This document shows positions 29,979-50,381 of a stretch of 64,000 bases of DNA, in pieces. The stretch spans positions 62,001 through 126,000 of the forward strand of contig JAPTHR010000002.1 in assembly GCA_029228645.1 (NCBI GenBank). The letters are read 5' to 3'. Origin of the DNA: Gammaproteobacteria bacterium Milos-ODIII6. Its GTDB lineage: Bacteria; Pseudomonadota; Gammaproteobacteria; Chromatiales; Chromatiaceae. A model generated the notes under the pieces. That model searched no databases, was not told the DNA's origin, and was given only the letters and a program-made list of their open reading frames with translations. The position numbers and the translations under genes are program-made. The first letter of the stretch is position 1, and each line of letters starts with the position of its first letter.

Positions 29979-30646
29979 CAGGCATCGGCCTCCCGCTGTG
30001 GCCAGGCAACCACCACGTCCAGACTGAACCGGATCAGCTCCCGCTGTTGCTGCTGGAAGGTCTCGGTGCGGATCACCCGCACCGTCTGGATTTCGGGCTG
30101 ATCGACCAGGCGCGAGACGAATCCCGAGAGGGCCGCATGATCCATGGCCTCGCCATCGATCTTCATCTGCGTTTCGATCACCCAGGCCTCGGACCCGGCA
30201 GGCGCCTGTGTGCGAGGCACCAGGATGAGGTATTTACCGGGCAGCTGCGGCTGAGCCTCGGATACTCTCGCCTTTGAACCGGCCCGGCGGAACGACCAGT
30301 CGGTGAACCACACCTTGGCGTCGGCCATGGCGCGATCGACCGTGAGCAGCATGCCAACCGCGGCAATCCCACTGCGCAGACCACTGAGCAGCTCGTATTG
30401 CTGGGTGATCTCCAGCTTGCGCTGGTTGATGTCGAGCAGATTGGCACGCTGCTGACTGCTGATCGCCTTGGCATGCTGCAGTCTTTCCAGCCCGTCCTCG
30501 AGAATCCCGTTTTCGTGCTGCAGGAACAGGGCCGCCCCCAGGATCAGGGCGAGCGCCGCTGTCGAGGAATAGGCAATGCTGCGCAAGCGCCGCAGCAACT
30601 GTTGTTTCTGCCGATAGGCGCCGGGGACCAGATCGATTTCAGACAT
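29978..30646 (-). CDS. PilN-like pilus alignment protein
   Basis: A 222-residue bitopic membrane protein. The N-terminal cytoplasmic motif SEIDLVPGAYRQKQQ resembles the INLLP motif of PilN that docks on PilM. One membrane helix (about 27-43), a coiled coil and a periplasmic domain follow. It overlaps the PilM-like gene by 8 bp and the PilO-like gene by ATGA, forming a PilM-N-O set. Confidence 0.72.
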   Translation of the reverse strand: MSEIDLVPGAYRQKQQLLRRLRSIAYSSTAALALILGAALFLQHENGILEDGLERLQHAKAISSQQRANLLDINQRKLEITQQYELLSGLRSGIAAVGMLLTVDRAMADAKVWFTDWSFRRAGSKARVSEAQPQLPGKYLILVPRTQAPAGSEAWVIETQMKIDGEAMDHAALSGFVSRLVDQPEIQTVRVIRTETFQQQQRELIRFSLDVVVAWPQREADA

Positions 30647-34467: not shown

Positions 34468-35019
34468 TCAGCGGCCGTCTTCGGCGGTGATGTTGACGAT
34501 GAACTTGCCGGTCTTGGAGTCGTACTTGTAACCGCCCGGGTCCGTGCCGGTCGCAGCCATGTTGAGGTCGCCCGCCGCTACCACTTCCATAACACTGGCG
34601 TTCTTGAAGGGCTCCGGCTCCAGCTGAGGCTTTTTGATGTAAGGACCGTACTTGTGATTGGCATCCGCGACAGAGCAGGCGCCGCCGTCCTTGTCGGTGT
34701 ACAGGCTCAGCTGCTCCAGGAAAGCCGTCTCGGCAGTTGCGCCTGCCCCACCGGTCGCCACGCCCGTGCCAGCTGATCCACCACAGGCCTGGGTCGGCAC
34801 CGCGGTCTTGGAACCGGGATATTCACCGTGCTGCTGGTAGTACAGGTCGAGCGCTGCTCGCACGTTGGACAGCGAGGTGTCTACCGCGGCAGAGGCTGCA
34901 TCATCGGTGGATGCGGCGAACTGCGGGATCACGATCGCCGATAGCAGGGCGAGGATGATCACCACGATCAGGAGTTCAACGAGTGAGAAACCGCGCTGTA
35001 GATTCTTCCGAACGGTCAT
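34468..35019 (-). CDS. Type IV major pilin (MshA/PilA-like)
   Basis: A 183-residue prepilin. A short basic leader MTVRKNLQRG is cleaved at G10-F11, giving mature FSLVELLIVVIILALLSAIV with Glu at +5. The globular domain has a cysteine pair candidate (one Cys in TQACGGS, one in GACSVAD) and a VEVVAAGDLNMAAT region. The ATG at 35019 is chosen because it gives the canonical leader; the frame is open to 35094. A strong terminator follows. It is the only standard full-length pilin in the locus, so the main pilus subunit. Confidence 0.9.
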   Translation of the reverse strand: MTVRKNLQRGFSLVELLIVVIILALLSAIVIPQFAASTDDAASAAVDTSLSNVRAALDLYYQQHGEYPGSKTAVPTQACGGSAGTGVATGGAGATAETAFLEQLSLYTDKDGGACSVADANHKYGPYIKKPQLEPEPFKNASVMEVVAAGDLNMAATGTDPGGYKYDSKTGKFIVNITAEDGR

Positions 35020-35332
35020 TGAAGGAGGCCTCTTGATATTTAAACAGATTGAATTCATTGGACTTGGTAGCTGTGGGAATCGGCTGCCGATCACAGTTCT
35101 TTAGTCCGTCGTGCAAAAAATCCTGGAAAATCCGGCCGGGAGAAGCCGCTTTGTCTGATGTGCCCGGACACCCGGTGCGCCCTTTCCAGTTGCGAGGGAG
35201 TAAGACGGGAATGGGGGCTCCATCAACAAGGTTCCTTCCCCACCCCGGCCCGTCCAATCGCAAACGGTTGCTTAAGCGCAACCCTTCCCCACGAGTGGGG
35301 AGGGGGATCGATATCCGACCCCTGTGAGAGTG
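35020..35332. other. Gene-free region upstream of the pilin
   Basis: About 310 bp between the pilin start and the platform-gene stop. It should contain the pilin promoter; TTGCAC near 35113 on the minus strand is a possible -35, but I see no convincing -10 or sigma-54 site. It also contains one member of the window's GC-rich hairpin family (35282-35306, CCTTCCCCAC/GTGGGGAGGG) next to the platform-gene end. Confidence 0.5.
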
Positions 35333-36454
35333 CTACCCGACGGCACGCGAGAGCTTGAATATCGGCAGGATCAGGGAACTGACGATCACGCCCACCAGCA
35401 CCCCCATGATCAGCAACAGGACCGGCTCGGCGAGCCGTGACAGGGTTGCCAGTCGATTGGTGACCTCGCGCTCGTAATGATCCGCGACCCGCCCCATCAC
35501 CCGTGCCAGGTTGCCGGTCTCTTCCCCGGTTCTGATCATCTGGTACACGATCGGGGGAATGAACCGGCTGTCCGCGAATCCCGCGGCCATGCCCTCGCCA
35601 TTGTTGATGCGGTTCTCCACATCGCTGAAGAGACGCCGGAAGATCCGGTTCTGGACCACATCGCGGCCGGCGTGCAATGCATCGATGACGGGGACGCCAT
35701 TGCTCAGCGAAAGCCCGAGAACGCGCAGCGATTGGGTGAGATAGAGCCGCATGAAGACACTGCTCAATGGCGGCGCATGCAGCTTCAGCCAGTCGATTTT
35801 TACCCGGCCATCGGCACTGCGCGCCCAGTAGCGGATACCCAGCATCAGGACCGCCAAGCCCAGCAGAAGCAGTGGCCACTGCAGGCGGAACAGGTCGCTC
35901 AGGCCCATCAGGAAAACCGTGGTCGCCGGCAGTTCGTCCTGGATACCCTCGAAAAGGTCGGAGAACTTGGGAAAGACGAACACCAGCACGAAGATCACCA
36001 CACCCAGTGCGAACACCAACAGAAAGGCCGGATAGGAAAGCGCGGATACCAGGGTGTCATGCAGCTTTTCGCGCTTCTCCTCCATCTCCAGGATCTGATC
36101 GAGCACTTCCGCCATGAAGCCCCCCTCTTCACTCGCGGCGATCAGATTGACATAGGTCGGCGAGAAGACCTGCGGGTGACTGGCGAGCGCGGCCGAGAAC
36201 TGACGCCCCTCGGACACGTCGCGCGCAAGCGTCTCCAGCAGCCGGCGCAGCGCGGGCTTGCTGGCCTGCTGCTGGATCGCCAGCAGCGAGGCGTGCAGAT
36301 TGGTCCCGGTCGAGAGCATCAGGGCCAGCTGTTCGGTGAAGAAGTTGCGATCCTTGTCGCTCACCCGCCCCGCGCGAAGCGACGCGCCCAGGCGGATACC
36401 GTCCGAACCCTTTGCGGCACGCTTCTCCAGATTGACGTTGTATTCGATGGCCAT
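35333..36454 (-). CDS. Type IV pilus inner-membrane platform protein (MshG/PilC/GspF family)
   Basis: A 373-residue polytopic protein with the two tandem GspF domains: RNFFTEQLALMLSTGTNLHA ... GGFMAEVLDQILEMEEKREK and LTQSLRVLGLSLSNGVPVID ... TGEETGNLARVMGRVADHYE. Three membrane helices (about 147-170, 195-212, 345-365). It forms the rotating platform driven by the assembly ATPase encoded 7 bp upstream. Confidence 0.92.
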   Translation of the reverse strand: MAIEYNVNLEKRAAKGSDGIRLGASLRAGRVSDKDRNFFTEQLALMLSTGTNLHASLLAIQQQASKPALRRLLETLARDVSEGRQFSAALASHPQVFSPTYVNLIAASEEGGFMAEVLDQILEMEEKREKLHDTLVSALSYPAFLLVFALGVVIFVLVFVFPKFSDLFEGIQDELPATTVFLMGLSDLFRLQWPLLLLGLAVLMLGIRYWARSADGRVKIDWLKLHAPPLSSVFMRLYLTQSLRVLGLSLSNGVPVIDALHAGRDVVQNRIFRRLFSDVENRINNGEGMAAGFADSRFIPPIVYQMIRTGEETGNLARVMGRVADHYEREVTNRLATLSRLAEPVLLLIMGVLVGVIVSSLILPIFKLSRAVG

Positions 36455-36461
36455 GGTTTAC

Positions 36462-38552
36462 TCAGCTGTTGAGCACGCGCGAAATCTCTTCGATCGTGGT
36501 CTGCCCCTGGAGCACCCGTTGCATGCCGTCGTCGAACAGGTTGTCGATGCCCTTGCCGCGCAGGAACTCGTCCAGGGCGTCGCGGGAAGGATTGCTGATG
36601 ATCAGCTTCTGCAGATCCTCGTCGGTCTCCACGATCTCGTGCACCCCCATGCGCCCCTTGTATCCCGAGTCGTAGCATTCCGGACATCCCCGACCGCGAG
36701 CCAGGCGCACGTTGCCCTTCGCCTGCCAGGCATAACGCTCCACCAGTTCGGTCGGCGCGAGGTACTCGGTCCTGCAACTCGGGCAGATGCCGCGCACCAG
36801 TCGCTGCGCGACCACGCCGATCAGGGCGGAGGACAACAGGTAGGGCTCAACCCCCATATCCAGCATCCGGGTGACCGCACCCACGCTGTCGTTGGTATGC
36901 AGGGTGGAAAGCACCAAATGCCCGGTCAGAGCCGCCTGGACTGCGATCTCCGCGGTTTCCTTCTCCCGGATCTCGCCCACCATCACCACGTCCGGGTCCT
37001 GACGCAGCACGTGTTTGAGGACCTTGGCGAAGGTCAGCCCGATCTGCTCCTTGACCGGGTTCTGGTTGACGATATCAAGTTGATACTCGACCGGGTCCTC
37101 GATCGTGACGATGTTCTTTTCGATACTGTTGAGATAATTCAGCGCGGCATACAGCGTCGTTGTCTTGCCGCTACCGGTCGGACCCGTCACCAGCACCAGG
37201 CCGTAACTTCTGTCCAGCAGACCACGGTAGCGTTCCAGGTTGTCCGGCAACATGCCGATCCGGTTGATGTCGAGGATCGCCTGGTTCTTGTCGAGTACCC
37301 GCAGGACCACCTTCTCGCCATACATGCCCGGCAGGGAGCTGAAACGCAGGTCCACGGGGCGCCCCTGGGTATGCACCTGGATGCGGCCGTCCTGCGGCAG
37401 GCGCCGCTCCGCGATATCCATGTTCGCCATCACCTTGAGGCGCGACACGATCGCCGGATGCAGGCTCATACGCGGCGTCATGACCTCGTAGAGCAGTCCG
37501 TCGATACGCAGACGCACGCGCGCATGCGTCTTGCCGGGCTCGATGTGGATATCACTCGCCTTGTCGGTCACCGCGCGCTGAATAATCGAGTTGACCATGT
37601 TGATGACCGGGCTGTCGCCGGCCATCTCGTCGATTTTTTCATAGTCCGAGGGCTGGTGGCTGTCGACCACCTCGAAGTCGTCGGCCACCTCTTCCAGCAG
37701 CATGGTGCCGTACTGGCTGCCCGAATGCGCCTCGGAGAGGGTCTTGAGTATCTGCTCCTTGCGCGCCAGCACCGGGCGCACGCGCAGACCGGTGCGCTCC
37801 TCGACTTCGCCAAAGCTCGGCGCCGCCTGCGGATCGGCGGTAGCGACGTAGAGATACTCCCGCACCCGGAACAGCGGCAGCATGGCCAACCGCTTGCAAA
37901 CCTCCGGATCGAGCAGACCGATAATGTCCGGGTCGTACAGGCCCGCTTTCAGATCGGCATAGGGAATCCCGAGTTGCTCCCCGAGGGCGCTCAGCAGAAC
38001 CTTTTCGGTGATCCAGCCCTTGTCGATGACGATCTGCCCGAGCCGCCTGCCGCTGGTCTTCTGCAGCAGAATCGCCTCCTGCACCTTGTCCGGCGGAAGC
38101 AGGCCCTTCTCCACCAGGAGATCGCCCAGCCGGATGTTGCGCACCTCGCGGAAGTCCGTGGTGGCATTCTCCGGCCGGTCACCGTCGACCGCCACCGCGA
38201 TGACCCGCTCCAGTCCGGTAATGCGGAAGATTTCCCGGTTGAGCGCATTCACGTTGGCCACTTTGAGCCAGCCGCCCGCCTTGGCCAGGCGTTCCTGGGC
38301 GCTCACCAGCGCTTCCAGGCCGATGCTCTGCACCAGTGGCACACCGGACATATCCACCACCACGCGCGTATCCCACTGCTGCAACGACCGCTCGACCGCC
38401 TGCAGCAGGGGCGCCAGCTCCTCCTCCGTGGAAAGCACCCCACGCGGCGCCAGGTAGGTCATCACCCCCATGCGGGTGCATTGCACCTCGTTGCCCGCAT
38501 CGAGCCCGGCCCCGGTGACCGCCATGTCCGGCTTTTCGGCGTGCTCAGGCAT
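36462..38552 (-). CDS. Pilus assembly ATPase MshE/PilB with N-terminal STAS domain
   Basis: A 696-residue hexameric motor with an unusual layout. Residues about 22-123 form a STAS-like domain (RVVVDMSGVPLVQSIGLEAL, then AKAGGWLKVANVN). Two tandem MshEN motifs, R141 to Q164 and R170 to Q193, each start RLG and follow the RLGxx..G..LxxQ pattern of c-di-GMP-binding MshE. The ATPase core has Walker A GPTGSGKT (457-464), Walker B DPDVVMVGEIRE (519-530) and a Zn-type four-Cys site (C590, C593, C623, C626). It overlaps the EAL gene by 8 bp. Likely the extension motor, regulated by c-di-GMP. Confidence 0.93.
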   Translation of the reverse strand: MPEHAEKPDMAVTGAGLDAGNEVQCTRMGVMTYLAPRGVLSTEEELAPLLQAVERSLQQWDTRVVVDMSGVPLVQSIGLEALVSAQERLAKAGGWLKVANVNALNREIFRITGLERVIAVAVDGDRPENATTDFREVRNIRLGDLLVEKGLLPPDKVQEAILLQKTSGRRLGQIVIDKGWITEKVLLSALGEQLGIPYADLKAGLYDPDIIGLLDPEVCKRLAMLPLFRVREYLYVATADPQAAPSFGEVEERTGLRVRPVLARKEQILKTLSEAHSGSQYGTMLLEEVADDFEVVDSHQPSDYEKIDEMAGDSPVINMVNSIIQRAVTDKASDIHIEPGKTHARVRLRIDGLLYEVMTPRMSLHPAIVSRLKVMANMDIAERRLPQDGRIQVHTQGRPVDLRFSSLPGMYGEKVVLRVLDKNQAILDINRIGMLPDNLERYRGLLDRSYGLVLVTGPTGSGKTTTLYAALNYLNSIEKNIVTIEDPVEYQLDIVNQNPVKEQIGLTFAKVLKHVLRQDPDVVMVGEIREKETAEIAVQAALTGHLVLSTLHTNDSVGAVTRMLDMGVEPYLLSSALIGVVAQRLVRGICPSCRTEYLAPTELVERYAWQAKGNVRLARGRGCPECYDSGYKGRMGVHEIVETDEDLQKLIISNPSRDALDEFLRGKGIDNLFDDGMQRVLQGQTTIEEISRVLNS

Positions 38553-40728
38553 TGATCACCGTCTCCAACTCATTCGTTCCCGCGAGCACCTCGCCCAGAG
38601 GTATGGGGCGGCCAAAGTGGTAGCCCTGCGCATAGTCGACCCCGATCTCGTTGAGCCTGGCCACAATTTCCGCATTCTCGACGTACTCCGCGATGGTCCG
38701 CAGCCCCATCACCTGACCCACCCGGTTGATCGCTGCAACCATCGTCGCGGCAACCTTGTCCTCGTGGATCCGGCGCACAAAGGAACCATCGATCTTGAGA
38801 TAGTCGAGCTCCATTTCCTGCAGGTAAGCAAACGAACTCAGGCCGCTGCCAAAGTCATCCAGGGAGAATCTGCAGCCGAAGTCGCGTACCCGCCGCATGA
38901 ACAGGCGCGCCTCGTCCATGCTCTCGATCGCGGCCGACTCGGTGACCTCGAATACCAGCTGACCCAAAAGATCACCCGCCTGCTGCAATGCCCGGAATAT
39001 CTTCTGCTGCAGTGCGGGATCGTTCAGTGTCTGTCCGGACAGGTTGATGGAAAAACTCCCTTCCAGCCCGCCCGGCGAGTGTTGCTGAGCCGATAATTCC
39101 CTGATCGACTGTTGTACCACCCACCAGTCCAGTTCCGGCATCAGGAAAAAATGCTCTGCCGGTGGAATGAATGTGGCGGGCGACAGGATCTGGCCATCCT
39201 CGGCCTGCAGACGCACCAGGATCTCGTGGTGGCTTCCCTGGATGTCCTCTTTCAAGCTCCGGATCGGCTGTGCATACAGGCGGAAGTGATCATCGCGGAT
39301 CGCCCGCTGGATGCGCCCCATCCATTCGGCCTCGCCGCGCCTGAGCGTGAGCACACTGTTCGATTCCCGGTACACCTCGGTGCGGTTGACACCCTTGGTC
39401 TTGGCTGCACGCAGGGCCGTCTCCGCCATCGAGAGCACCTCCGAGACATCCCGGATTCCCGGATTGAGTTCTACGCCCCCGATACACGCGCTCAGCGCGC
39501 ACGCCTCCCCCTGCCACTGGTAGTCCAGTTTGGTAATCAGTTGCCGCAGCGTATTGCCGAGCACCTCGGCCCTTTGCCCGGCCCCATTCTCCAACAGCAG
39601 GCCAAATCGGCCGCCGCCCAGGCGTGCGGCGCTGCCCTCCGGGCCAGCCAGATCCGAGAGCAGGCGGCCGGCCTTGACCAGCACCTCGTCTCCCACCTCG
39701 CGCCCGCTCATGTCGTTGATCACATTGAAGCGATCGATGTCGACCAGCAGCAGGACCGGTGCGGGCTCCACCTGCCTCGCGTTATCGAGCGCTTGCCGGA
39801 TCGCCCACTCCAGGCTCTGCGCATTCTCCATCCCGGTCAGGGGATCGAAGTTGACCTGCAGCGCCTTGTCGATACGGCCTGCCATCACCTCGAGCATATT
39901 GCGGTCGCTGTTCTCGAAATCCCCACCGTCCCTTTTGTTCAGCACCAGCAAAACGCCGATGATGCGCGCGCCACCGGCTAGCAGTGGAGCGATCATCAGC
40001 TTGTTGTCCGGCGACGGCGGGAGTGACCAGGCCAGCTGTTCCGCATCGCTGTTGACCACCACAGCGGTATCGGGATCCTTTTGCAGTGCCGCATGCAGCC
40101 GCAGGTGATCCAGCAGCCCCGGCCAGATGCGTTCGACTTCCTCCTCGGCCGGGTCAAAGCACTGGATGCGTTTTCTCAGGACCAACAGGCCGCAGGCGGC
40201 AACATCCAGCGCATTGCCGGTGTGTCGCACCAATTGCGCCAGGGACTCGTATCCAAAACTGACCGACGCGCGTGCCATCTCCGCCGCGAACATCATGTTG
40301 AGTTCGTCATACCGCGCAGCGAGATCGTCGGCCATGCTGTCCAATTCCGCATTCAGCAGAAAATCACGCCGCAATCCCTCGCAGACCAGATGGCAGAGTC
40401 GAATATGATCGGCCTTGCTATTCCCGAGGGTCAGCAGCGCAATGAAGACCAGATCATCCTGTTCATCGCGAATCCGGCAGCATAGCGCGGTACCCTTGTT
40501 CGGCAGGCATTCCTCCAGCACCTCGGAAGAACCCTCCGCCCCTGCCTGGTCGCGCGCGCGAAACCTCCGGATCGTTTCCGGCGAGAGCTCGTTGTCCTCG
40601 GGCGCATCGGCCCACACGGGGCGCCAGCGATCATCGAGCAAGCGGAAGTCAATCAGGTCGACCCCGGCCGCCCGCAGGAGGGCGACGCTGTTTTCGACTT
40701 CCAGCTGATCGATCACCCAGTTTGCCAT
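38545..40728 (-). CDS. GAF / degenerate GGDEF / EAL c-di-GMP phosphodiesterase
   Basis: A 727-residue cytoplasmic protein. An N-terminal region of unknown type is followed by a GAF-like domain (about 150-290), a GGDEF domain whose active loop is GGGRF (371-375) and so inactive as a cyclase, and an EAL domain. EAL ligands are present: E502 (EIL form of EAL), N562, E594, D624-D625, K645, E681 and Q701. Predicted to hydrolyse c-di-GMP, with the GGDEF domain possibly a GTP sensor. It overlaps the motor gene by 8 bp, tying it to pilus control. Confidence 0.9.
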   Translation of the reverse strand: MANWVIDQLEVENSVALLRAAGVDLIDFRLLDDRWRPVWADAPEDNELSPETIRRFRARDQAGAEGSSEVLEECLPNKGTALCCRIRDEQDDLVFIALLTLGNSKADHIRLCHLVCEGLRRDFLLNAELDSMADDLAARYDELNMMFAAEMARASVSFGYESLAQLVRHTGNALDVAACGLLVLRKRIQCFDPAEEEVERIWPGLLDHLRLHAALQKDPDTAVVVNSDAEQLAWSLPPSPDNKLMIAPLLAGGARIIGVLLVLNKRDGGDFENSDRNMLEVMAGRIDKALQVNFDPLTGMENAQSLEWAIRQALDNARQVEPAPVLLLVDIDRFNVINDMSGREVGDEVLVKAGRLLSDLAGPEGSAARLGGGRFGLLLENGAGQRAEVLGNTLRQLITKLDYQWQGEACALSACIGGVELNPGIRDVSEVLSMAETALRAAKTKGVNRTEVYRESNSVLTLRRGEAEWMGRIQRAIRDDHFRLYAQPIRSLKEDIQGSHHEILVRLQAEDGQILSPATFIPPAEHFFLMPELDWWVVQQSIRELSAQQHSPGGLEGSFSINLSGQTLNDPALQQKIFRALQQAGDLLGQLVFEVTESAAIESMDEARLFMRRVRDFGCRFSLDDFGSGLSSFAYLQEMELDYLKIDGSFVRRIHEDKVAATMVAAINRVGQVMGLRTIAEYVENAEIVARLNEIGVDYAQGYHFGRPIPLGEVLAGTNELETVINA

Positions 40729-40732
40729 TGCG

Positions 40733-41116
40733 TCAGCAGGCTTTGCGCTCGTTCAGTTCAAAATAACTGTCCAGCTCGGCGATCACCCGGCGCATGCTGA
40801 CCGGCTTCTCCAGAAACACGAGCTTATCGATGCCACGCGACCATTCCCGATGCTCGAGCTCCGTGCGTGAGGTCACGACAAAGATCAGAAATTGGCGCGC
40901 CGGCAGCGTCTCCTGGATTTTTCGGCAGAGTTCCTCGCCGGTCATGCGCGGCATCTCGATATCGGTAATCAGCACATCCGGCGGATCCTCGAGGATGCGC
41001 TCGAGCGCGACCGCGCCGTTCGGAACGCCCTCCACCCGGTAACCCTGGCGTTCCAGCGCCTGCGCCATCACGCGAATGACATGCCGCTGATCATCGGCAA
41101 TCAGGATTCTCTTCAT
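40733..41116 (-). CDS. Single-domain response regulator (CheY-like)
   Basis: A 127-residue receiver with no output domain. The acidic pocket is D8-D9, the phospho-acceptor D52 (LITDIEMPRMTG), T82 and K104-P105, all present. It starts within the histidine kinase stop (ATGA) and ends 4 bp before the EAL gene, so kinase, receiver, EAL protein and motor are translationally linked. It may bind the EAL protein or the STAS-motor; that is inference. Confidence 0.92.
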   Translation of the reverse strand: MKRILIADDQRHVIRVMAQALERQGYRVEGVPNGAVALERILEDPPDVLITDIEMPRMTGEELCRKIQETLPARQFLIFVVTSRTELEHREWSRGIDKLVFLEKPVSMRRVIAELDSYFELNERKAC

Positions 41117-42951
41117 GCGTTCGCCACCTGCAGCAGGTTTGCCGTATCTTTGGGAATTCGAATGCGGAAAGTCGTGCCCTTGTCCGGGATGCTGTCCACT
41201 TCAAGGCTGCCGTGATGCAGCCGAATAATCTGCTGCGCCAGCGGAAGACCCAGGCCATGGCCCTGCTGCGCCCGCACCCTGTCGTCGTCGGAGCGGTAGA
41301 ACTTGTCGAAGATGCGGGCCTGCTCATCGGGGCGGATGCCAAGCCCGGTGTCGGTGACGCGCACCTCGACCCATTCCGCCGTCTCTGCGGCCTGCAGCAC
41401 GACTTTGCCACCGGGCCGGTTGTATTTGATCGCGTTGGTCAACAGGTTGTTGAGCGCGATGCGCAACATCTCCTTGTCCACGTTCACCGCGCCAATCTCA
41501 CGCGGCAGATCGAGTTCGAACCCGATATCGCGTCCACGCCCGCTCTGGGAAACGTTGTCGAAGGCGTCCTGCAGCAGTTCCACCAACCGCACCCGACCGC
41601 GATCGAGTGTGCCTCCACCCAATTCCAGGCGGTTCAGCGCCAGCATGCCGTTGATCAGTTCGGCCAGGCGCTCGACCTCGTCGTGGATGACATTGACCGC
41701 TTCGATGCGATAGGCCTTGTCTTCTCCGTCCTCACCGAGCAGCGATTCGCTGTACATCGACAGCACGTTCAGCGGGGTTTTCAGCTCGTGCGCCAGCTGG
41801 GTCACGAACTCGATCTGGCCGCGCTTGGCGGCCTGCTCCTCGGCGATATCCCGAAACACCACCAGGGTGCCGAGCAACTCGTTTTCCCGCTTCGGCGAGA
41901 ACAGGGGATAGGCGCGAACCTCGAACAGGTGTTCATTGTCTCCGGAAGGGGAGTACTGCATCGAATCGGTGACGATGCCCATGTGGCGCGCATTACGCAG
42001 TGGCGACAGGTAACGCAGGAGCTCCTGGCTTTTGCAGAAATCCGAGGGCGGATGGCCGACCAGCTCCCCTTCCGGCACGTTCAGAATGCCGGGCACCCGT
42101 GCGTTGGCATAGCTGATCACTCCCGTCTCATCCAGGACCATGACGGCATCCGGCAGGGTGCCCAGGATGGACTCGATCTTGCCCTGGCGATACATCAGCA
42201 GCTTGCTGGAGGTTTCCATGTGTTCGTGCTCGTCCTCCAGCACCTTGACGCGCTCGGTCGCCATATCCACGAACTGGTTGAACCGTGAGATGAAATCGCT
42301 CATCTCCTCGTTCGGGGCGACTTCCGTCTTCTGCAGGACGCCCTGCTCCATCACCCGGTCGATGCGCTCGCTGACCGAGCGCAGGGATGCCGTCTCGCGA
42401 CGGAGCAGGAAATAGAAAATCGGCACCAGCAGGAACACCACCAGTCCCAGTTGCGCGGCATAGGACAGGGTGTTCAGGTCGACATCCAGGGTGGGTTTGA
42501 GGTAGCCCAGCCGGACATAACCTTCAAGGTTGCCGTCCGAGATCACCGGCGCGTGGAATTCGATCAGCGGATCGCCGCCGCTGGCAGCGGGAAACTCCCG
42601 CTCGCCCAGCCAGGCGGAAGGATCGGCCGGAGGATTCGCATTCGGCACGATCACGCCGGGCGCCGCCTCCAATGCCACGGGCTTGCCGTCCGGGCTCACC
42701 ACGGCCACGTAGGCGAAGTCGTCGCGGCTGTGGGAGTGACGCAGGGCCCGAAGCACGCCACCGGTGGCACTGCTGGGCACCAGTTCCTGCCAGGACATGC
42801 CCCCGAGAACCCGCGCCAGTGCCACGCCCTGCCCGCGGACCTGTTCCATGCGCGCCTGGGTGTGTTCGAACAGGAACATGTACGCGACAACCGCCATCAC
42901 ACCCAGGGATGCGACCACTATTCCAAGCCCTGTTCGTTCGCTTCTCTGCAC
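41113..42951 (-). CDS. Membrane sensor histidine kinase (dCache/PAS-type input)
   Basis: A 612-residue kinase. Membrane helices at about 9-28 and 165-183 enclose a periplasmic sensor (about 30-160). A HAMP-like linker, a PAS domain (about 258-375, MVLDETGVISYANARVPGIL), HisKA with phospho-acceptor H388 (LAHELKTPLN) and HATPase_c (NNLLTNAIKYN, DTGLGI, GHGLGLPLAQQI) follow. The GTG start at 42951 has GGAGG 5 nt upstream. Partner is the receiver encoded immediately downstream. Confidence 0.92.
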   Translation of the reverse strand: MQRSERTGLGIVVASLGVMAVVAYMFLFEHTQARMEQVRGQGVALARVLGGMSWQELVPSSATGGVLRALRHSHSRDDFAYVAVVSPDGKPVALEAAPGVIVPNANPPADPSAWLGEREFPAASGGDPLIEFHAPVISDGNLEGYVRLGYLKPTLDVDLNTLSYAAQLGLVVFLLVPIFYFLLRRETASLRSVSERIDRVMEQGVLQKTEVAPNEEMSDFISRFNQFVDMATERVKVLEDEHEHMETSSKLLMYRQGKIESILGTLPDAVMVLDETGVISYANARVPGILNVPEGELVGHPPSDFCKSQELLRYLSPLRNARHMGIVTDSMQYSPSGDNEHLFEVRAYPLFSPKRENELLGTLVVFRDIAEEQAAKRGQIEFVTQLAHELKTPLNVLSMYSESLLGEDGEDKAYRIEAVNVIHDEVERLAELINGMLALNRLELGGGTLDRGRVRLVELLQDAFDNVSQSGRGRDIGFELDLPREIGAVNVDKEMLRIALNNLLTNAIKYNRPGGKVVLQAAETAEWVEVRVTDTGLGIRPDEQARIFDKFYRSDDDRVRAQQGHGLGLPLAQQIIRLHHGSLEVDSIPDKGTTFRIRIPKDTANLLQVANA

Positions 42952-43196: not shown

Positions 43197-46100
43197 TCAG
43201 GGCGTGCACTGGACCTGAATGTTGTCGAAAAACACGAAGTCCCTGCCCCCGTTGTCGGGAGAGCTGCGCAGGCGGATGGCGGTATTCGCCGAGATGAACG
43301 CGCTGATATCCCGGGAATAGGGCTGATAACTGCCGTCCGTGCCGCCACCCTCGATGCGGGGGGCCGGCAGTTCAGTCCAGGGCCCCGCCGTGCCGTTGGA
43401 GGAGGCATACACAGCGACATAGTCACCACTGTTGTCGAGATCCTTGCGCCGATAGTCGAAGCTCAGGATGGCAGTGCCCGCGCCCGTCAGATCGGCCACA
43501 CGCTCCACCCCTTCGCCGCCATTGTCGTTATCCGCAATCTGCAGCTGGTAATCGCTGAGATCGTTTTTGACCCGCACGTCCCCCTTGCTAACACCATCAC
43601 TTTCCCCTAATTCCACCCAGGGGTTTGCGCTCCAATCCAAAGTCCCGTCCGTGCCATCCCAGGACACGGCATTGAACTCGTCGCGGTAGGTGCCATCGCA
43701 ACTCCCGCCCGGCTCCGGCCCGCTACCGCCGCCACCGCCCGCCGCGATTGCCGCGATCTCGCTCTCATCGAGCATATGACCATAAATGCGCGCATCGTCG
43801 ATGACCCCGTCGAAGGTATTGGTGACGCCGCCGGCGAAATTGCCCAATGTCAGCTTGAGGTCCGCATCGGAACGCAGATCGCCCGAGGGGGTGTCCACCT
43901 CGGTCACCGCCAGCGGCACCCCGTTGAGATAGATCAGCGGGTCATTGCCCACCGAGCCCGCATAGTAGACGACCGCGATGTGCTGCCAGGTGTTCAGTGT
44001 GATTTCACCGACGGCTGCCTGCCACCAACCCCGGCCACCGGTAAAGCCCTGCCCGAAGTTGAGTCCGTCATTGTCCGTATTAAGACGGATTGCCCAGCCA
44101 TCGCCGGTCGAAGAGGCCGAGCTGGATTTGTCGAAGATGCGCCCGTAACCGTTACCACCCCAGCCGGCCGGGTTGATCCATGCCATGACCGTGGCGCCAC
44201 CGACAAAGACGTCGTCCAGTTCCGCATCCGATGTCAGATTGACGTAGTCATCCAGACCATCGAAAGACAAGGCACCATTATCCTGACCGGTGGTCCAAAC
44301 CGGCCCATTACCCAGCTCGCCGTCATGCCCCCCTTCCGAGTCCACCGCGATGACACCGGTTGTCTCATCGAGCTTCCAGTGCGCAACCGGGCCGAGTTCG
44401 ATATTGGCCCCACCGGCCCACTCCAGCGAACGGCGCAGAATCGTCAGGCCATCGTTGCTGAGGGTTGCGACATCCAGGCTGTCCCAGGGCATTTGCGCGC
44501 GACGGCCCGCCGTCTCCTCCGCCATCGAGTTCATGGCACCGGCATCCAGCGTCACCAGGCCGCCCAAGGGCGACAGCGCGCCACCGCTCCAGGTGCCGGG
44601 CTGCTCGAGGCCCGCTGCCAGGGTCCCGACCGCGCCGCCCGACGGTTGATCCGCGGTGTACAGGGTAAGCGGGGCCCCACCGAACGGCTGGGTGATGTAA
44701 TGACTGGCCACCGTGTTGAGCGGCGCATTGGTCGAGGACACGTAGCGCGCCGTAGAGAAGCCGAAATCATCGTGCAGGCCGGTGTTGCCGTTGACCACGC
44801 CGATGGCGACCTTGTACAGCTTGGCGCCGACGCTCTCGGGCACCGCGGTCGCGGAGACATACACGACCTCGTTTGCGAGCGACGCGGCATCGAAATCCGC
44901 CACGGGTGCATCGTCATCGATCAGGTTGACCCTGTAACCCCACGACTGGAAAACGCTTTTCTTGGCCTGGTCAGAGCTGTCGAGGGCACTTGGGTCGGCC
45001 ACCACGAACAACAGTTCCTGCGCCGCGCCCTGGGTTTGCGCGCCCCACTCGATCGCCCGCCGCATGAGGGTGCGCCCATCGTCGCTCAATAGGTCGATGT
45101 CGAAGGTGCCTCCGCCCCAGGGTAGCTGCACGCGCCGCCCCGCGGCCGTGCCCCCACCGGACAGTTGATCCCCGGGTTCCAGCACTGCCAACGACGGCTC
45201 CCAGAGAGAGCCCGTGTTAAGGCTCTGCCCCAGTGTCTGCAACGCCGGTGCCACCTGGCCCGACAGCATGTGGACCGATTGATCGACCTGGGAAAACGCC
45301 AGCAGCCCGAGCGCGAACGGCTGGGTGATGTAGTGGCTGTTGTCGACAATGTCGATCTCGCGCAGGGTCTTGAAAATCTTGTCTCCGCTGAACCCGAGCT
45401 CGTCGACCTGTTCGCCCTCTTCATTGACCACGCCGATCGGTGCATTGACCAACTTGGTTCCCAGGTTGGACGAGGTGATGTCCTGCGGAATGTAGGCCAC
45501 GTCGTTGCCCGCAACCGCTGTATCGAAATTTTCCTGGCTGTCGGCATCGCTGATCAGGTTGACCGTAAAGCCCCAGGATTCCATCAGGTCGATACGCAGT
45601 TGCTCCTGGGCTGTGGGAATGATCGTGGTTGCGCCGGTTCCGACTTCGACAACGACATATCCCGCCGAAACGAGCAGGATATTTCCCGCACTGGTGTCGT
45701 CCGCACCCATGGACCAAGCAAGCGCCCGCTGCACCAGCAGGCGACCGTTGGCATTCAGATAATCCCAGTTGAACCGGTAACGGGTGCCGAGCGGCAGGAT
45801 CACGCGCCGTCCCGCCGCCGTTCCGCCTCCCTGCATCGCAGCGCCGGCATCGAGCACAACAAGTGAACCCTCAGCGCCGATTTCGGCGAGCGTCTGCTGG
45901 CCTGCGGTCAGGATGCCGCTGACAATGGCCTGCTCCATGTCGGCGCTATAGATCGGGAGGGTGCCAGCGGCAAACGGCCGGGTGATGAAGTGATCGGTGC
46001 TGACGATATCGATTTTACCGCCGACCTTGAGCGCCGCGCCCGTCGCCAGGCCGAGGTCCGGATTGTAGTCGCCAGCCTGGCTGACCACGCCGATCGGGGC

Positions 46101-47816
46101 ACCCGCCAGCTTGGGACCCAGCAGGTGCGAACTGACGGTCTCCGAGATGAACACCACGTCGTTGTTCGCAACTCCGGCGTCATAGGTCGCCTGGTTGGCG
46201 CTCCCGCTGATGACATTTACCGTGTAGCCCCAGGACTCGAACAAGTCCCTGGCCTTCTGGTCCGCCTCTACCAGGTTGGTCGGGTCGACCACAGCCATCA
46301 GGATGTTGCCGTAGCCCTGCGGTGCCAGGCAGGCCTGATCGCAGCCACAGGTATAGCTCACCTCGAGGACGGGGCGTTGCTCGGGAACCGTGTAATCACT
46401 GCTGCGAAAATAGACCTCGGTGGCCGGGGCGGCCGGCACCAGTGCCAAACCCTGGTTATCGAACTGCCCGGAGGCCCAGCCCTGCACGAGCGCGGAAATA
46501 TCCCATTCGTAGTAACCCACACTACCCGTCGGGACCGTCTGGGTGGCGACGGACGCTGTGTCAAAGTCGCCGCCCGGATCGGTCCAGTTTGCTGCACTGT
46601 TCGCGACGATCCAGGTCGCTCCCGCGCCGGCCCCGCCGCTCTTTTCGCCTTCGTCCCAGGCGCGCTTGATCCGATGCACCCCGACCTCGCCACCGTTGAC
46701 CGAGGGCGAGTGCTGATAAAGGCGCAGCGTCGCTTGTTGTACCCGGGCGCCGCGCGGCAGCCTGCCGAGGTTGAATTTGAGCAGGCTGATGGCCTCCGAA
46801 TCGGTGAAGTAATTGGAAACCCAAATCTCATCACTTGCCCCGTAGTTCCAGGTCGATTTCCATTCATAGACATAGGTATCCAGCCCCTCTGTCGCGTCCG
46901 GGCGCAGGCTCAGATAACCGGGGGGAGTCTGATACAGCGTCACATCTCGCCGCTGGACAGTGACGCCCCCACCGCCCGCTGTTTTTCCGATCGATTTCAA
47001 TTGTGCCGGATTTGCCGGTGGGGTCCCGACGACGATCTCGAGATAAGGCGCAAACGAGGATTCACGACTGTTGATCTTGGCCGAGATATTGACTGACGAC
47101 GGCTTGAACATGACACCGTAGTTGGACTGCCCGTTGACCCAGGCCTGAACCAGGCCGGTCAGGTTGGACGCAACCCAGACACCGGAGGACGGCGGCGGCG
47201 GGATGCTCGCAAGCACCTGGCTATCGAATTGGTCGCTCATACTGTTCCAGGTGGCGTCTGATTCGAGCCAGTCGCCGCTTACCCGGTGAACGTCGAGCGT
47301 ACCGGTCGTATGAGCCGTTTGGATATACGCATGCATCGTAGCCGCCAGGATGCTGGCATCGGGCGGCAGGGACGACAGATCAAAGCGAATCAGGCTGCGT
47401 TCCTCGTCCACACCATCGAAGCTGACATTCAGTTTGACGCTGCCGCCATTATTGGCATCCGGTTCCGCCGAAACGATACCGTCGTCCTGGTCCGCCGGTA
47501 ACGTGTAAGCGGTTGTGGCACCGAGGTCCGTGGTGAGGCTGGTGCTGTACGTTTCGCTCCCAATGGGTACGTTGAGCAAGTCAGTGTAGGGGCCGCAGCC
47601 CTGCTGCGCGGTATGCCTCAGAGCGTGTTGCAGCCCGGCCTGGGCGACATAGTTCGCTTTGGTGCTCTCGAGCTCGCTCACGGACATGTTGATGCCCATG
47701 CCGCTTTCACGGCTGCTCATGAAGGCGATGGTCGCGATCAGGGCGATCGCGATCGCAACCGGCAGCAAAATGTAACCGCGGGCGCGAGAAACTGTTGGTA
47801 AGCCGTTTACGGTCAC
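43197..47816 (-). CDS. Giant PilX/GspK-like pilin-anchored tip protein (DNRLRE x2, three ~200-aa repeats, LamG)
   Basis: A 1539-residue surface protein. The leader and helix RARGYILLPVAIAIALIATI (11-30) resemble minor pilins that lack Glu5, as GspK and PilX-type subunits can. Two DNRLRE-like domains follow (about 107-265 and 300-490). Three homologous repeats come next (503-703, 711-925, 934-1134), each with a VxDP/SWGY..N-type start, ITxPFA, GGGTAAGRR-like and (A/S)(L/I)EW-end blocks. A LamG/concanavalin-type domain (1143-1360), a Gly/Ser linker and a C-terminal beta domain (1373-1539) complete it. In MSHA loci MshQ-type proteins occupy this place. Likely a pilus-tip adhesin; the ligand is unknown. 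GTG start overlaps the previous stop. Confidence 0.85.
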   Translation of the reverse strand: MTVNGLPTVSRARGYILLPVAIAIALIATIAFMSSRESGMGINMSVSELESTKANYVAQAGLQHALRHTAQQGCGPYTDLLNVPIGSETYSTSLTTDLGATTAYTLPADQDDGIVSAEPDANNGGSVKLNVSFDGVDEERSLIRFDLSSLPPDASILAATMHAYIQTAHTTGTLDVHRVSGDWLESDATWNSMSDQFDSQVLASIPPPPSSGVWVASNLTGLVQAWVNGQSNYGVMFKPSSVNISAKINSRESSFAPYLEIVVGTPPANPAQLKSIGKTAGGGGVTVQRRDVTLYQTPPGYLSLRPDATEGLDTYVYEWKSTWNYGASDEIWVSNYFTDSEAISLLKFNLGRLPRGARVQQATLRLYQHSPSVNGGEVGVHRIKRAWDEGEKSGGAGAGATWIVANSAANWTDPGGDFDTASVATQTVPTGSVGYYEWDISALVQGWASGQFDNQGLALVPAAPATEVYFRSSDYTVPEQRPVLEVSYTCGCDQACLAPQGYGNILMAVVDPTNLVEADQKARDLFESWGYTVNVISGSANQATYDAGVANNDVVFISETVSSHLLGPKLAGAPIGVVSQAGDYNPDLGLATGAALKVGGKIDIVSTDHFITRPFAAGTLPIYSADMEQAIVSGILTAGQQTLAEIGAEGSLVVLDAGAAMQGGGTAAGRRVILPLGTRYRFNWDYLNANGRLLVQRALAWSMGADDTSAGNILLVSAGYVVVEVGTGATTIIPTAQEQLRIDLMESWGFTVNLISDADSQENFDTAVAGNDVAYIPQDITSSNLGTKLVNAPIGVVNEEGEQVDELGFSGDKIFKTLREIDIVDNSHYITQPFALGLLAFSQVDQSVHMLSGQVAPALQTLGQSLNTGSLWEPSLAVLEPGDQLSGGGTAAGRRVQLPWGGGTFDIDLLSDDGRTLMRRAIEWGAQTQGAAQELLFVVADPSALDSSDQAKKSVFQSWGYRVNLIDDDAPVADFDAASLANEVVYVSATAVPESVGAKLYKVAIGVVNGNTGLHDDFGFSTARYVSSTNAPLNTVASHYITQPFGGAPLTLYTADQPSGGAVGTLAAGLEQPGTWSGGALSPLGGLVTLDAGAMNSMAEETAGRRAQMPWDSLDVATLSNDGLTILRRSLEWAGGANIELGPVAHWKLDETTGVIAVDSEGGHDGELGNGPVWTTGQDNGALSFDGLDDYVNLTSDAELDDVFVGGATVMAWINPAGWGGNGYGRIFDKSSSASSTGDGWAIRLNTDNDGLNFGQGFTGGRGWWQAAVGEITLNTWQHIAVVYYAGSVGNDPLIYLNGVPLAVTEVDTPSGDLRSDADLKLTLGNFAGGVTNTFDGVIDDARIYGHMLDESEIAAIAAGGGGGSGPEPGGSCDGTYRDEFNAVSWDGTDGTLDWSANPWVELGESDGVSKGDVRVKNDLSDYQLQIADNDNGGEGVERVADLTGAGTAILSFDYRRKDLDNSGDYVAVYASSNGTAGPWTELPAPRIEGGGTDGSYQPYSRDISAFISANTAIRLRSSPDNGGRDFVFFDNIQVQCTP

Positions 47817-48808
47817 AAGGCGCCACCCAGCCTGACCGTGGTGTTCAGACTGACGGATTCGCCATTCGCCGGGTCGGTCAGCTCCAGGGTCAGATCAACC
47901 CGATCGAACGGTCCCGGAGTGGCGACCCGCTCGACCCGGAAACGGGTCACATTCTCGGCAATAGACGACTCAACGAAGTCCCGCCCGTCTATCCCGCCAC
48001 TGGAATTTTCGTCCCAGGGAACCGGCAGACGTTCTATGAGTATGCCGGCGTCGAGAAAATAGACCAGTGGGTCGTACCAGTCCTCGTCGGCGGTACCATC
48101 CTCGTCATCATCATCGACACTGCCTTCATCGATATTTCCATCGCCGTCATCATCCACGCCGCAGATACCCGGACAACCATCCTCGTTCATGTTGGCCGAC
48201 GGATCCTCGTCGATGTTATTGTCGCCGTCGTCGTCGATACCGTTGATCGGATCCTCGCCTTCCAGGTTCAGGCGCTCGTCGTCGTCGATATCGATACTGT
48301 TATCGGCGCCACCGTCACCATCGTCGTCGACGCCGTACACCCCTGAACCGAAATCATTATGGATATCTTCGGGAAGGTCCTCATCGATTTGCCCATCACC
48401 ATCGTTGTCAGCATCCGGCACACCGTTGGCGTCGGTATCGAAATGGGCAGGCAGCGTGAAAGCGAGCACGGCCGTTGCGAGTGTGCTGTCGCCGATAGGG
48501 GGCGATGGCGGGACGGTCTGTTCGCGGATGTGTTCCGGATAGTTGGTGTAGGGATTGTCGTTGAATGGCAGTAAAAGTTGGCGGCTATGCGCGATATTTT
48601 GCGTCATTCTCTGCATGGCGAAGCGCGCCTGCTGCGACAGATCGTTGCGCTTACCGACCACCTCGCTGGTCTTGGTCGCGGTATTGACCACGCCCATCAG
48701 GCCGGCGATCAACAAAGCCGAAATGGTGATGGACACCAACAGCTCGACATAGGTGAATCCGCGAGCGATGCGGATACGGTGGCTGACTGAAGCGGATCGA
48801 TGACGCAT
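47813..48808 (-). CDS. Minor pilin (MshO/PilW-like) with Asp-rich Ca-binding-type repeats
   Basis: A 331-residue prepilin-like protein. Leader MRHRSASVSHRIRIARG is cleaved at G17-F18 to give FTYVELLVSITISALL, with Glu at +5. Residues 124-243 hold six DxDxDG-type loops (for example DNDGDGQID and DDDGDGNID), like thrombospondin-3/dockerin Ca sites, inserted in the globular domain. The region near the C-terminus (RFRVERV, VDLTLELTDP) is PilW/MshO-like. It lies in the minor-pilin run, overlapping the giant protein start by GTGA. Confidence 0.82.
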   Translation of the reverse strand: MRHRSASVSHRIRIARGFTYVELLVSITISALLIAGLMGVVNTATKTSEVVGKRNDLSQQARFAMQRMTQNIAHSRQLLLPFNDNPYTNYPEHIREQTVPPSPPIGDSTLATAVLAFTLPAHFDTDANGVPDADNDGDGQIDEDLPEDIHNDFGSGVYGVDDDGDGGADNSIDIDDDERLNLEGEDPINGIDDDGDNNIDEDPSANMNEDGCPGICGVDDDGDGNIDEGSVDDDDEDGTADEDWYDPLVYFLDAGILIERLPVPWDENSSGGIDGRDFVESSIAENVTRFRVERVATPGPFDRVDLTLELTDPANGESVSLNTTVRLGGAL

Positions 48809-48817
48809 GGGTTTCTT

Positions 48818-49240
48818 CTAGCGTGCGAGCAGCGTCTGCAACGATTGACTGTCGTCGGCCAGTGCCACCCGGACCCACAGCAGATCGTCTTCGCCGCCGG
48901 TCATGACGTCTCCGTCGAGGTCGGCATCGTCCACGTCGTAGCGCCAGATATACACATTGCGCGTGATCTCCGGACTGAACACGTCGGAGTAGCTCGTGGG
49001 CGTGGTCCATGACCCGGCCGTTATGGCTGCAGCATCCAGGTTGTCAAAGGGCTCCGCCAACAGCATTTCCATCTTGCCGCTCAAGGCGTAATGGACCTCT
49101 GCATGCTGTCTGTGCAGGGCAGAACCCTGCATTCCCGGCGAAAGCGCATCCAGTGCGGGGACCAGGGTCAGGGCGATCAGTACCGTGGCGACCATCACCT
49201 CGATGTAAGTGACACCACGTTGATAGCGCAACGATGTCAT
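48818..49240 (-). CDS. Minor pilin (PilV/MshD-like)
   Basis: A 140-residue prepilin-like protein: MTSLRYQRG is cleaved at G9-V10, giving VTYIEVMVATVLIALTLVPA with Glu at +5. The short globular part contains HAEVHYALSGKMEMLLAEPF, a PilV/MshD-like pattern, and an Asp-rich loop (DVDDADLDGDVMTGGEDD). It overlaps the upstream minor-pilin stop by ATGA. Confidence 0.82.
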   Translation of the reverse strand: MTSLRYQRGVTYIEVMVATVLIALTLVPALDALSPGMQGSALHRQHAEVHYALSGKMEMLLAEPFDNLDAAAITAGSWTTPTSYSDVFSPEITRNVYIWRYDVDDADLDGDVMTGGEDDLLWVRVALADDSQSLQTLLAR

Positions 49241-49788
49241 TGCAGCGCCACCCGGCCGGTAAGAGGAGATATCCTGATGGTGCGGGTAGCGTTGCCGTAG
49301 CTGAGTTGCACACTGCCGTCGGTCAAACGGAAGATTTCGTCGGTGGAGCCGAAAAACCAGACCGGCGCGCCCGTCCGGTCGAATAACAGGCTCTTGCGAC
49401 GATTGTTGTCGCTGAAGAGGAAGGCATCCTGGGTATTACTGATGGTCACTCCGGCGGTGAGTGGCTCCTCTTCCACATTGAATTCGTAGACCTGCTTCTC
49501 CAGAGGGTGGTACAGCTTGAACTCGGTAGTGATGGGGGATGTGGTCAGGTCATATTTTTTTACTTCCACCTTGTGGGTGTTCTGACTGATGGTCAGCCCG
49601 TGCATCTCGCCGGTGCGCAGGGATTCGCTGCGCGCCATGCGGATCGCCTGCATCACCTCGCTGGCGGCCAAGTCCAGCTTGGCCGGGTCGGTCGCGGAGA
49701 AGTTCGGCAGCACGACCGCAGCCAGGACGCCCAGGATGGCAATCACAAGGGTCAGTTCCAGCAGGCTCATGCCTGTCTGCGGTTTCAT
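49237..49788 (-). CDS. Minor pilin (GspH/FimT, MshC-like)
   Basis: A 183-residue prepilin-like protein. Leader MKPQTG is cleaved before MSLLELTLVIAILGVLAAVV, with Glu at +5. The GspH-type globular domain begins ASEVMQAIRMARSESLRTGE and ends RIRISPLTGRVALQ. First gene of the minor-pilin operon; GAGGACC is a possible ribosome site upstream, though spaced rather far. The open frame continues upstream to 49926 but gives no leader peptide. Confidence 0.83.
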   Translation of the reverse strand: MKPQTGMSLLELTLVIAILGVLAAVVLPNFSATDPAKLDLAASEVMQAIRMARSESLRTGEMHGLTISQNTHKVEVKKYDLTTSPITTEFKLYHPLEKQVYEFNVEEEPLTAGVTISNTQDAFLFSDNNRRKSLLFDRTGAPVWFFGSTDEIFRLTDGSVQLSYGNATRTIRISPLTGRVALQ

Positions 49789-50381
49789 CAGCTTGAGGTC
49801 CTCACATGGCGCCCACGCCCTGTTCGATCCAGATCGCGGTGCGCGGATGGCTTTGCGGGGCTTTGCAGCGTTAACAGCGACAGGCTCCCGGCAATTTTCG
49901 GCTGAGAGCAATATCGGCAAGGACAAGAATTAATTTACCTGTTGGCTCCACCCGAGCCGCAAACCCAGCTGGCCGCGAACACGCCACCGGCTGAACGCCG
50001 GGTCGGTCGGCCATGCGGCCGACTATCCCCTCCCCGCTTGTGGGAAGCGGCCATTGTGGGCAATCCCAACAGCTTCTTCGTTTGTCCCCTCCCCACTTGT
50101 AGGGAGGGTTAGGGTGGGCAATCGCAACAGCTTCTTCGTTTGTCCCCTCCCCACTCGTGGGGAGGGTTAGGGTGGCGAGGAAACAGCCCAACCAACTGAA
50201 CGCCACCCCCATCCCAACCTTCCCCCTCCAAGAGGGGGAAGGGGCGAAGTGGCCATACCAACCTTCCCCCTCCGAGAGGGGGAAGGGGCGAAGTGGCTAT
50301 CCCCTCCCCACCCGTGGGGATTGTCAGGGTGGGCAATCGCAACAGCTACTTCGTTTATCCCCTCCCTACTTGTGGGGAGGG
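49789..50381. other. Gene-free, repeat-filled region upstream of the minor-pilin operon
   Basis: About 590 bp without a credible gene. The first ~200 bp should hold the minor-pilin promoter (none clear). The rest is the palindrome GTCGGCC-ATGC-GGCCGAC (50006-50023) followed by tandem GC-rich hairpin repeats (see 50025-50396). Transcription in this stretch would meet many stable hairpins. Confidence 0.55.

Follow-up and report, generated by a model that had tools for sequence, protein, structure and literature searches.

A giant modular minor pilin with glutamine amidotransferase-fold repeats, a candidate multi-lectin of a type IV pilus tip

Why would a type IV pilus carry a minor pilin of 1539 residues? 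The question is raised by a locus of Gammaproteobacteria bacterium Milos-ODIII6 that lies in a window of 64,000 nucleotides (contig JAPTHR010000002.1, positions 62,001 to 126,000; the whole stretch of DNA analysed here). An open reading frame at 43197-47816 on the reverse strand, beginning with GTG, encodes a protein that an earlier note on this DNA had described as giant and anchored by a pilin stem. The size is indeed exceptional for its setting, as the three other minor prepilins of the same cassette have 140-331 residues as called. On this stem we find a pair of domains of the CBM96/DNRLRE type (Pfam PF24517, E = 7e-33; NCBIfam NF033679, E = 2e-55), three tandem repeats and one LamG domain, so that the two kinds of flanking domain named in the note are recovered by library searches. 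Based on the evidence set out below, we propose that the protein is a modular tip pilin whose non-catalytic glutamine amidotransferase (GATase)-fold domains may recognise glycans, a reading to which we give somewhat better than even credence.

The three repeats, each of about 205 residues, are homologous far past chance. In BLASTP comparisons repeat 1 aligns with repeat 2 at 42% identity over 207 residues (E = 8e-47) and with repeat 3 at 33% over 211 residues (E = 9e-33), repeats 2 and 3 align at 34% over 191 residues (E = 6e-31), and Smith-Waterman scores between repeats stand at 37-53 standard deviations over 500 shuffles. Their limits (residues 501-705, 709-928 and 932-1140) are close to those read earlier (503-703, 711-925 and 934-1134), and the shared motifs SWG(Y/F).VN, IGVV, H(Y/F)IT.PF and GRR occur in all three. 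Across an alignment of 33 repeat units from 17 proteins (homologues are named here by locus, L007 and so on; one incomplete unit of L019 was set aside), W29, H109, R170, R171, P175 and W201 are invariant and D/E156 is kept in 32 units. The repeats gave no significant match in Pfam, NCBIfam or PDB sequences by phmmer and profile searches, and when the 33 units were compared with Pfam at E ≤ 10, a scan in which the HMMER filters discard most matches above E ~0.1, neither GATase nor ThuA was among the six families listed. Matches to UvrB (E = 0.07) and ApoL (E = 0.16) are at chance level, and we take the Pfam labels TGFb_propeptide and Toxin_R_bind_N that fall on the family as a beta-sandwich likeness to CBM96 and LamG, not as a sign of function.

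A flavodoxin-like or GATase-like fold had been guessed for the repeats, together with the suggestion that the structure of a single repeat be predicted and compared with structural databases. An AlphaFold2 model of repeat 1 (mean predicted local distance difference test score, pLDDT, 93.3; predicted template-modelling score, pTM, 0.91) bears out the guess, and by this model the repeats have the class I GATase/ThuA-like (flavodoxin-like) fold. The best PDB match in Foldseek is 1i1q_B, the GATase subunit of anthranilate synthase (E = 2e-7), which VIA-align superposes on the model with Z = 16.2 over 172 residues at 2.7 Å. The levan surface glycan-binding protein (SGBPlev; 8aa2_G, chain G of the levan utilisome, residues 180-438) follows with Z = 15.0 over 191 residues at 3.2 Å, and further matches are ThuA-like 1t0b (Z = 14.8), the N-terminal domain of IFT52 (5fmr; Z = 13.7), Agd3 (Z = 13.1) and galacto-N-biose phosphorylase (Z = 12.9). 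The oligosaccharyltransferase chains 6c26_B and 6s7t_G are also among the Foldseek matches, and a fold search against viral proteins gave two matches at E ≤ 0.001, neither of them informative.

An amidotransferase enzyme can be rejected, because the cysteine on which such enzymes depend is absent: the three repeats contain none, and no column of the 33-unit alignment has more than one. At position 79, just after the fourth strand, where the usual topology of the fold would place the nucleophile elbow, we find N, S, T, F, I or Y. The next position is E in 23 of the 33 units, but seven units, namely repeat 1 and its group, have Q there.

The N terminus of the protein (RARG/YILLPVAIAIALIATIAF) has a class III leader whose last residue is Gly; about 20 hydrophobic residues come next, with Pro instead of Glu at +5. 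This prepilin N terminus without Glu5 and the K position in the minor-pilin cassette are in keeping with the GspK/PilX-like stem proposed earlier; a Pfam scan found no PilX_N in the protein itself and a weak match (E = 0.056) in its relative L009. The first CBM96 domain appears to be inserted into the pilin head, since the relative L015 runs uninterrupted between the two head segments where the giant protein and 14 other aligned sequences hold CBM96. An N-terminal model (mb2572f76ab44, from a 15-row alignment, model residue 1 being residue 9 of the protein; pLDDT 81) has a helix at 9-64, strands at 75-77 and 80-87, a CBM96 sandwich (match at about 91-256) and strands at 263-270 and 276-284; with a pTM of 0.59 the placement of the domains relative to each other is unsure. 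The pilin fold of the head is a suggestion from sequence and position. In fold comparisons CBM96 domain 1 resembles a chondroitin-sulfate-binding carbohydrate-binding module (8wab_B; Z = 22.2) and an alginate-binding one (7vbo; Z = 19.1). The insert reading fails for L008 (excluded from alignment A3): its second head segment is short of about 35 residues, so not every relative has an intact head.

How might such a protein work? We propose that it would be the K-position, tip-capping minor pilin of a pilus resembling the mannose-sensitive haemagglutinin (MSHA) type IV pilus, enlarged into a multi-lectin. The K subunit would start the filament together with H, I and J and, for that reason, would come to lie at its distal tip, holding out more than 1,200 residues of binding modules. 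In published systems the minor-pilin complex starts filament assembly and the subunit without Glu5 caps the tip (PMC10191384), so that the giant protein is probably displayed there too. The GATase-fold repeats would have lost catalysis and bind polysaccharide, as does the ThuA-like C-terminal domain of the Bacteroides SGBPlev, in which Trp297 and Trp359 are important for binding levan (PMC7618045). The ligand of repeat 1 would be constant, whereas repeats 2 and 3, like the C-terminal modules, would be swapped between lineages to widen or tune the range of targets; cyclic diguanylate (c-di-GMP) would set extension and adhesion, with the MshEN-type ATPase and the GGDEF/EAL genes at this locus as intermediaries, much as MSHA pilus activity in V. 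cholerae is under c-di-GMP control (PMC7096442). Glycans are the most likely target, given that documented binders exist for CBM96, for LamG-type lectins and for the GATase/ThuA fold. The lectin-bearing modular pilin PilC of S. sanguinis binds glycans (PMC9934059), and sugar binding has been proposed for GIFT domains (PMC7226087). The pilus-tip adhesin of the earlier note gains support from the CBM96 and LamG domains in its company and from a levan-binding protein of the same fold, and it is from these likenesses that we infer binding itself.

Repeat 1, for which we propose a constant ligand, is unusually conserved among close relatives. Between the window and its three closest relatives (L007-L009) repeat 1 has 77-78% identity, against 30-60% for the other modules of the giant pilin, 49-58% for the pilin helix, 57-58% for the PilW-like (J-type) minor pilin and 65-66% for the motor ATPase (L007 and L009). 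Of the 15 window pieces compared, a set without PilM, PilN, PilO and the secretin, none is as well conserved in these relatives as repeat 1. In most pairs repeats 2 and 3 have changed more quickly; with L010, repeat 3 (73%) is above repeat 1 (68%). In the tree, first repeats from seven proteins cluster together with good support (99/97), repeat 3 of the window pairs with repeat 3 of L010 (100/100), and repeats 2 and 3 of L009 are each other's sisters (100/100); these groupings indicate that the later repeats were duplicated or exchanged. At fourfold sites, identity in repeat 1 is 57/94 (61%) with L007, 52/97 (54%) with L008 and 57/93 (61%) with L009, and in the ATPase 121/230 with L007 and 123/232 with L009 (53%), the comparison of 61 with 53% giving Fisher's P = 0.22 for each of L007 and L009. 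Because these values are near those of the ATPase, selection on the protein is likelier than recent exchange as the cause of the conservation. Recent gene conversion is unsupported by fourfold sites, where repeat 1 is only slightly above the ATPase, and some exchange may have contributed.

Conservation of this kind can also be read as the mark of a fixed protein partner. The repeats, chiefly repeat 1, would then be a docking platform for the H-I-J complex or for a secreted tip effector, with adhesion left to CBM96 and LamG. The top rank of repeat 1 among the pieces compared is what a fixed partner predicts, L016, L017 and L077 have the domain after the pilin head with no CBM96 found, and the fold is that of IFT52, a scaffold protein. 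There is also a precedent in CofB, the adapter that holds CofJ (PMC8179133). A fixed site, however, has no need of a repeat number that varies from 1 to 3 or of second and third repeats that are exchanged or duplicated, as the sister repeats of L009 illustrate, and the same domain is carried by homologues that have no pilin at all, in two of which (L085 and L086) LamG occurs three times. We consider docking, the main rival, unlikely, if by no means far-fetched. An enzymatic reading, in which the former GATase pocket has acquired a new active site and the repeats are, say, hydrolases or deacetylases of surface polymers, would make sense of the polar invariant residues H109, R170 and R171 and of D/E156, and the fold matches of repeat 1 do include dimethylformamidase, N-acetyl-phenylalanine acylase and homoserine succinyltransferase. 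With no conserved nucleophile at position 79 or in any cysteine, and with position 80 turning from E to Q in the group of repeat 1, such a site seems to us improbable. The repeats could, finally, be a passive spacer that pushes the LamG and C-terminal domains off the fibre, and both the variable copy number and the faster divergence of repeats 2 and 3 are as expected of one. Strong constraint on repeat 1 and six residues invariant across phyla are not, and the proteins of L082 and L083 stop with the domain, so that a spacer there would have nothing to carry; we regard a spacer as very improbable.

The proposal that the repeats are glycan-recognising modules of a tip pilin has several points to answer. 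The conservation of repeat 1 is no less in keeping with a constant protein partner than with a glycan, and it falls below that of the ATPase in L011 (53% versus 57%) and L012 (57% versus 64%). A fold match is by itself silent on function, the top two rows being enzymes, and the invariant W29, H109, R170, R171 and W201 may be structural. As 5 of the 36 homologues classified have a secretion-like N terminus and no pilin, the domain is not strictly a part of pili. On the side of the stem, no pilin is among the best 50 fold matches of the N-terminal model (pTM 0.59), a list that CBM96 fills, and the gap in L008 coincides with the second part of the head.

The strategy of grafting modules on pilins is known: modular pilins are widespread, with 264 architectures in InterPro according to Raynaud et al. 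(PMC8179133), and the giant protein, which joins a pilin module to modules that are not pilus-specific, follows the same strategy. PilB (von Willebrand factor A domain) and PilC (lectin) of S. sanguinis likewise combine a pilin with effector modules shown by the filament, and PilC has a concanavalin A-like lectin module; for these pilins, too, a place at the tip is argued from architecture (PMC8179133, PMC9934059). The giant pilin differs from both: its carrier is a K-type subunit that lacks Glu5 and belongs to an HIJK cassette, and some seven modules have been added, one of them in the head. GATase-fold repeats are not named in the parts of these two papers that were consulted. GspK of type II secretion pseudopili is also a tip pilin with an extra domain inside the pilin sheet (PMC8179133); its insert is an alpha-domain, whereas that of the giant pilin is a CBM96 beta-sandwich and is joined by further C-terminal modules. 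The C-terminal domain of SGBPlev (8aa2) shares fold and cell-surface binding with the repeats, at only 13% identity; SGBPlev is a lipoprotein of a SusCD complex with no pilin, and its levan-binding Trp residues have no assigned place on the repeats. Class I glutamine amidotransferases (TrpG, PabA, GuaA) share the overall fold (Z ~13-16), unlike the repeats in having a catalytic Cys; the repeats are in addition predicted to be extracellular and stand in tandem. GIFT domains (IFT52, GldG, Wbp1) resemble repeat 1 by fold and belong to eukaryotic or gliding proteins, unlike the giant pilin. MshQ of the V. cholerae MSHA pilus is, like the giant protein, large and has a LamG domain; it is encoded by a separate gene, whereas the adhesin-like modules of the giant protein are fused to a K pilin. 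MshQ is a putative adhesin, and its loss lowers surface pili (PMC7096442).

Three things are new here: a GATase-fold module for which no family model exists, the repeated occurrence of this module on pilins of the K and J types from two phyla, and a CBM96 insert in the head; among the matches listed from open-licence PMC texts, none describes a GATase-fold module on pilins. Surveys that look for modular pilins by the customary pilin signature and by named domains probably overlook this family, for its K-type stems are without Glu5 and no model exists for the repeats. If the proposal is true, a recycled enzyme fold would serve as a dedicated sugar-recognition module of pilus tips, where sequence libraries are silent, and repeat 1, small, confidently modelled and strongly conserved, would be a handle on the ligand, the tip position and the c-di-GMP control of an MSHA-like pilus.

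The gene of the giant pilin is the last of an H-I-J-K minor-pilin cassette, and the genes of the pilus machine lie downstream on the same strand, with HDOD and GGDEF proteins interspersed (Table 1). A Pfam scan found no PilY1/PilC tip-adhesin domain (PF05567) in the giant protein, and the only PilY1-family match of the genome at E ≤ 0.01 is on another contig. The J-type minor pilin has six Asp-rich stretches (residues 132-238), several of the form DxDxDG, that resemble calcium-binding loops. The pilus ATPase has a STAS domain N-terminal to MshEN and an RLGxxLVxxGLL motif at residue 141. In seven other genomes of the genus, matches to this ATPase begin at residue 135 or later with 35-50% identity, and the pilus locus may for that reason be absent from them.

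Table 1. The giant minor pilin, its modules and the surrounding type IV pilus genes (window positions; residues of the protein in brackets).
Feature	Position	Strand	Length	Basis
Giant modular minor pilin, GspK/PilX-type prepilin, K position	43197..47816	-	1539 aa	
Prepilin leader and alpha-1 helix (aa 1-75); +5 is Pro, not Glu (YILLP)	47592..47816	-		sequence; helix in model
Pilin head, first part (aa 76-105)	47502..47591	-		alignment with insert-less L015; model strands
CBM96/DNRLRE domain 1 (aa 106-262), within pilin head	47031..47501	-		Pfam PF24517; structure matches
Pilin head, second part (aa 263-300)	46917..47030	-		alignment with L015; model strands
CBM96/DNRLRE domain 2 (aa 313-486)	46359..46880	-		NCBIfam NF033679, best stretch 313-486
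C-x-C-x3-C cluster (aa 490-496), directly ahead of repeat 1	46329..46349	-		sequence
Repeat 1 (aa 501-705), GATase/ThuA-like, no Cys	45702..46316	-		BLASTP, model, fold search
Repeat 2 (aa 709-928), same family as repeat 1	45033..45692	-		sequence comparison
Repeat 3 (aa 932-1140), same family as repeat 1	44397..45023	-		sequence comparison
Laminin_G_3 (concanavalin A-like lectin) domain (aa 1187-1355)	43752..44258	-		PF13385, E 1e-18
C-terminal choice-of-anchor-J-like stretch (aa 1446-1535), weak	43212..43481	-		NF038128, E 5e-4, below cut-off
J-type minor prepilin (PilW/GspJ-like), Asp-rich loops	47813..48808	-		library matches, position
I-type minor prepilin (PilV/GspI-like)	48818..49240	-		position and weak matches
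H-type minor prepilin (FimU/GspH-like)	49237..49926	-		library matches
PAS histidine kinase	41113..42951	-		Pfam
Response regulator receiver	40733..41116	-		Pfam
GGDEF-EAL protein	38545..40728	-		Pfam
Extension ATPase with STAS and MshEN domains	36462..38552	-		Pfam
Platform protein (T2SSF)	35333..36454	-		Pfam
Putative major pilin (N_methyl; T2SSG weak)	34468..35094	-		domain match
PilM-like	30639..31835	-		domain match
PilN-like	29978..30646	-		domain match
PilO-like, weak	29418..29978	-		E 0.003, below cut-off
Secretin	27623..29044	-		domain match

Scanning a genome collection for homologues gave 13 loci. Matching genomes number 9 of 210 in the window's family, 1 of 8 in its genus (the window's own, also with the whole protein as query), 4 of 369 across the class and 20 of 392 in the phylum to which L016, a contig of Phycisphaerae, belongs, so that the distribution is sporadic. 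We classified 36 proteins (the window, L007-L019, L049 and L076-L095, with two in L080); the seven weaker of the 20 genomes in the L016 phylum (G618, G502, G379, G558, G438, G339 and G412) and three further class-level genomes (G774, G821 and G870, re-scanned for repeats only) lie outside this set. Carriers occur in Gammaproteobacteria and Planctomycetota. Among the 36, 24 are K-type prepilins, three are J-type prepilins with Glu5 (L019, L082, L083), five have a secretion-like N terminus as judged by eye (L018, L049, L085-L087) and four have lost the N terminus at a contig end (L010, L013, L089, L095); as all were found with pilin-borne repeats as bait, these counts are not unbiased frequencies. 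Prepilins make up 11 of the 14 classified proteins in the L016 phylum sample alone, from which the pilin-less L085, L086 and L087, with one GATase-fold domain each, also come. None of the 24 K-type carriers has Glu5, and at least one Glu5 prepilin gene adjoins 22 of them, the exceptions being L078 and L088, whose frame begins 244 bases into its contig. The number of repeats is 1-3 in the homologous proteins compared. LamG is present in 26 of the 31 homologues scanned for it (L012, L049, L082, L087 and L095 excluded) and absent from L013, L018, L019, L023 and L083; L021, L022 and L023 are shorter stretches of proteins in L088, L089 and L091. We put forward tentatively the wider claim that the domains are GATase-fold lectins without catalysis and form a family not described so far. 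This family would recur as a head module on tip pilins of the K and J types in at least Gammaproteobacteria and Planctomycetota and would replace PilY1-type adhesins in these loci, and the first repeat would recognise one conserved polysaccharide across species.

Several smaller observations go with these proteins. The C-x-C-x3-C cluster ahead of repeat 1 is a candidate metal or disulfide knuckle; when the spacing ahead of the final Cys may be one to four residues, three such cysteines directly precede the first repeat in all 18 proteins of the group that includes the window (the window, L007-L015, L088-L095) and in 0 of 10 K-type proteins of the Planctomycetota-type set (L016, L017, L076-L081, L084). 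At L080:1523-9891, two K-type giant pilins with the GATase-fold domain stand in tandem behind a single set of prepilin genes. A LamG stretch 42% identical to that of the giant pilin occurs elsewhere in the same genome, in an open frame of 3800 residues (L037, G000:C19:100501-101040). The distant match in L075 (E = 1.2e-4), whose protein also matches fibronectin type III weakly, hints at a GATase-like family that is wider and still without a name. Lastly, L108 and L113 (G870) have two repeats, a gap of about 215 residues and then a third repeat, and the gap may hold another module or a lost repeat.

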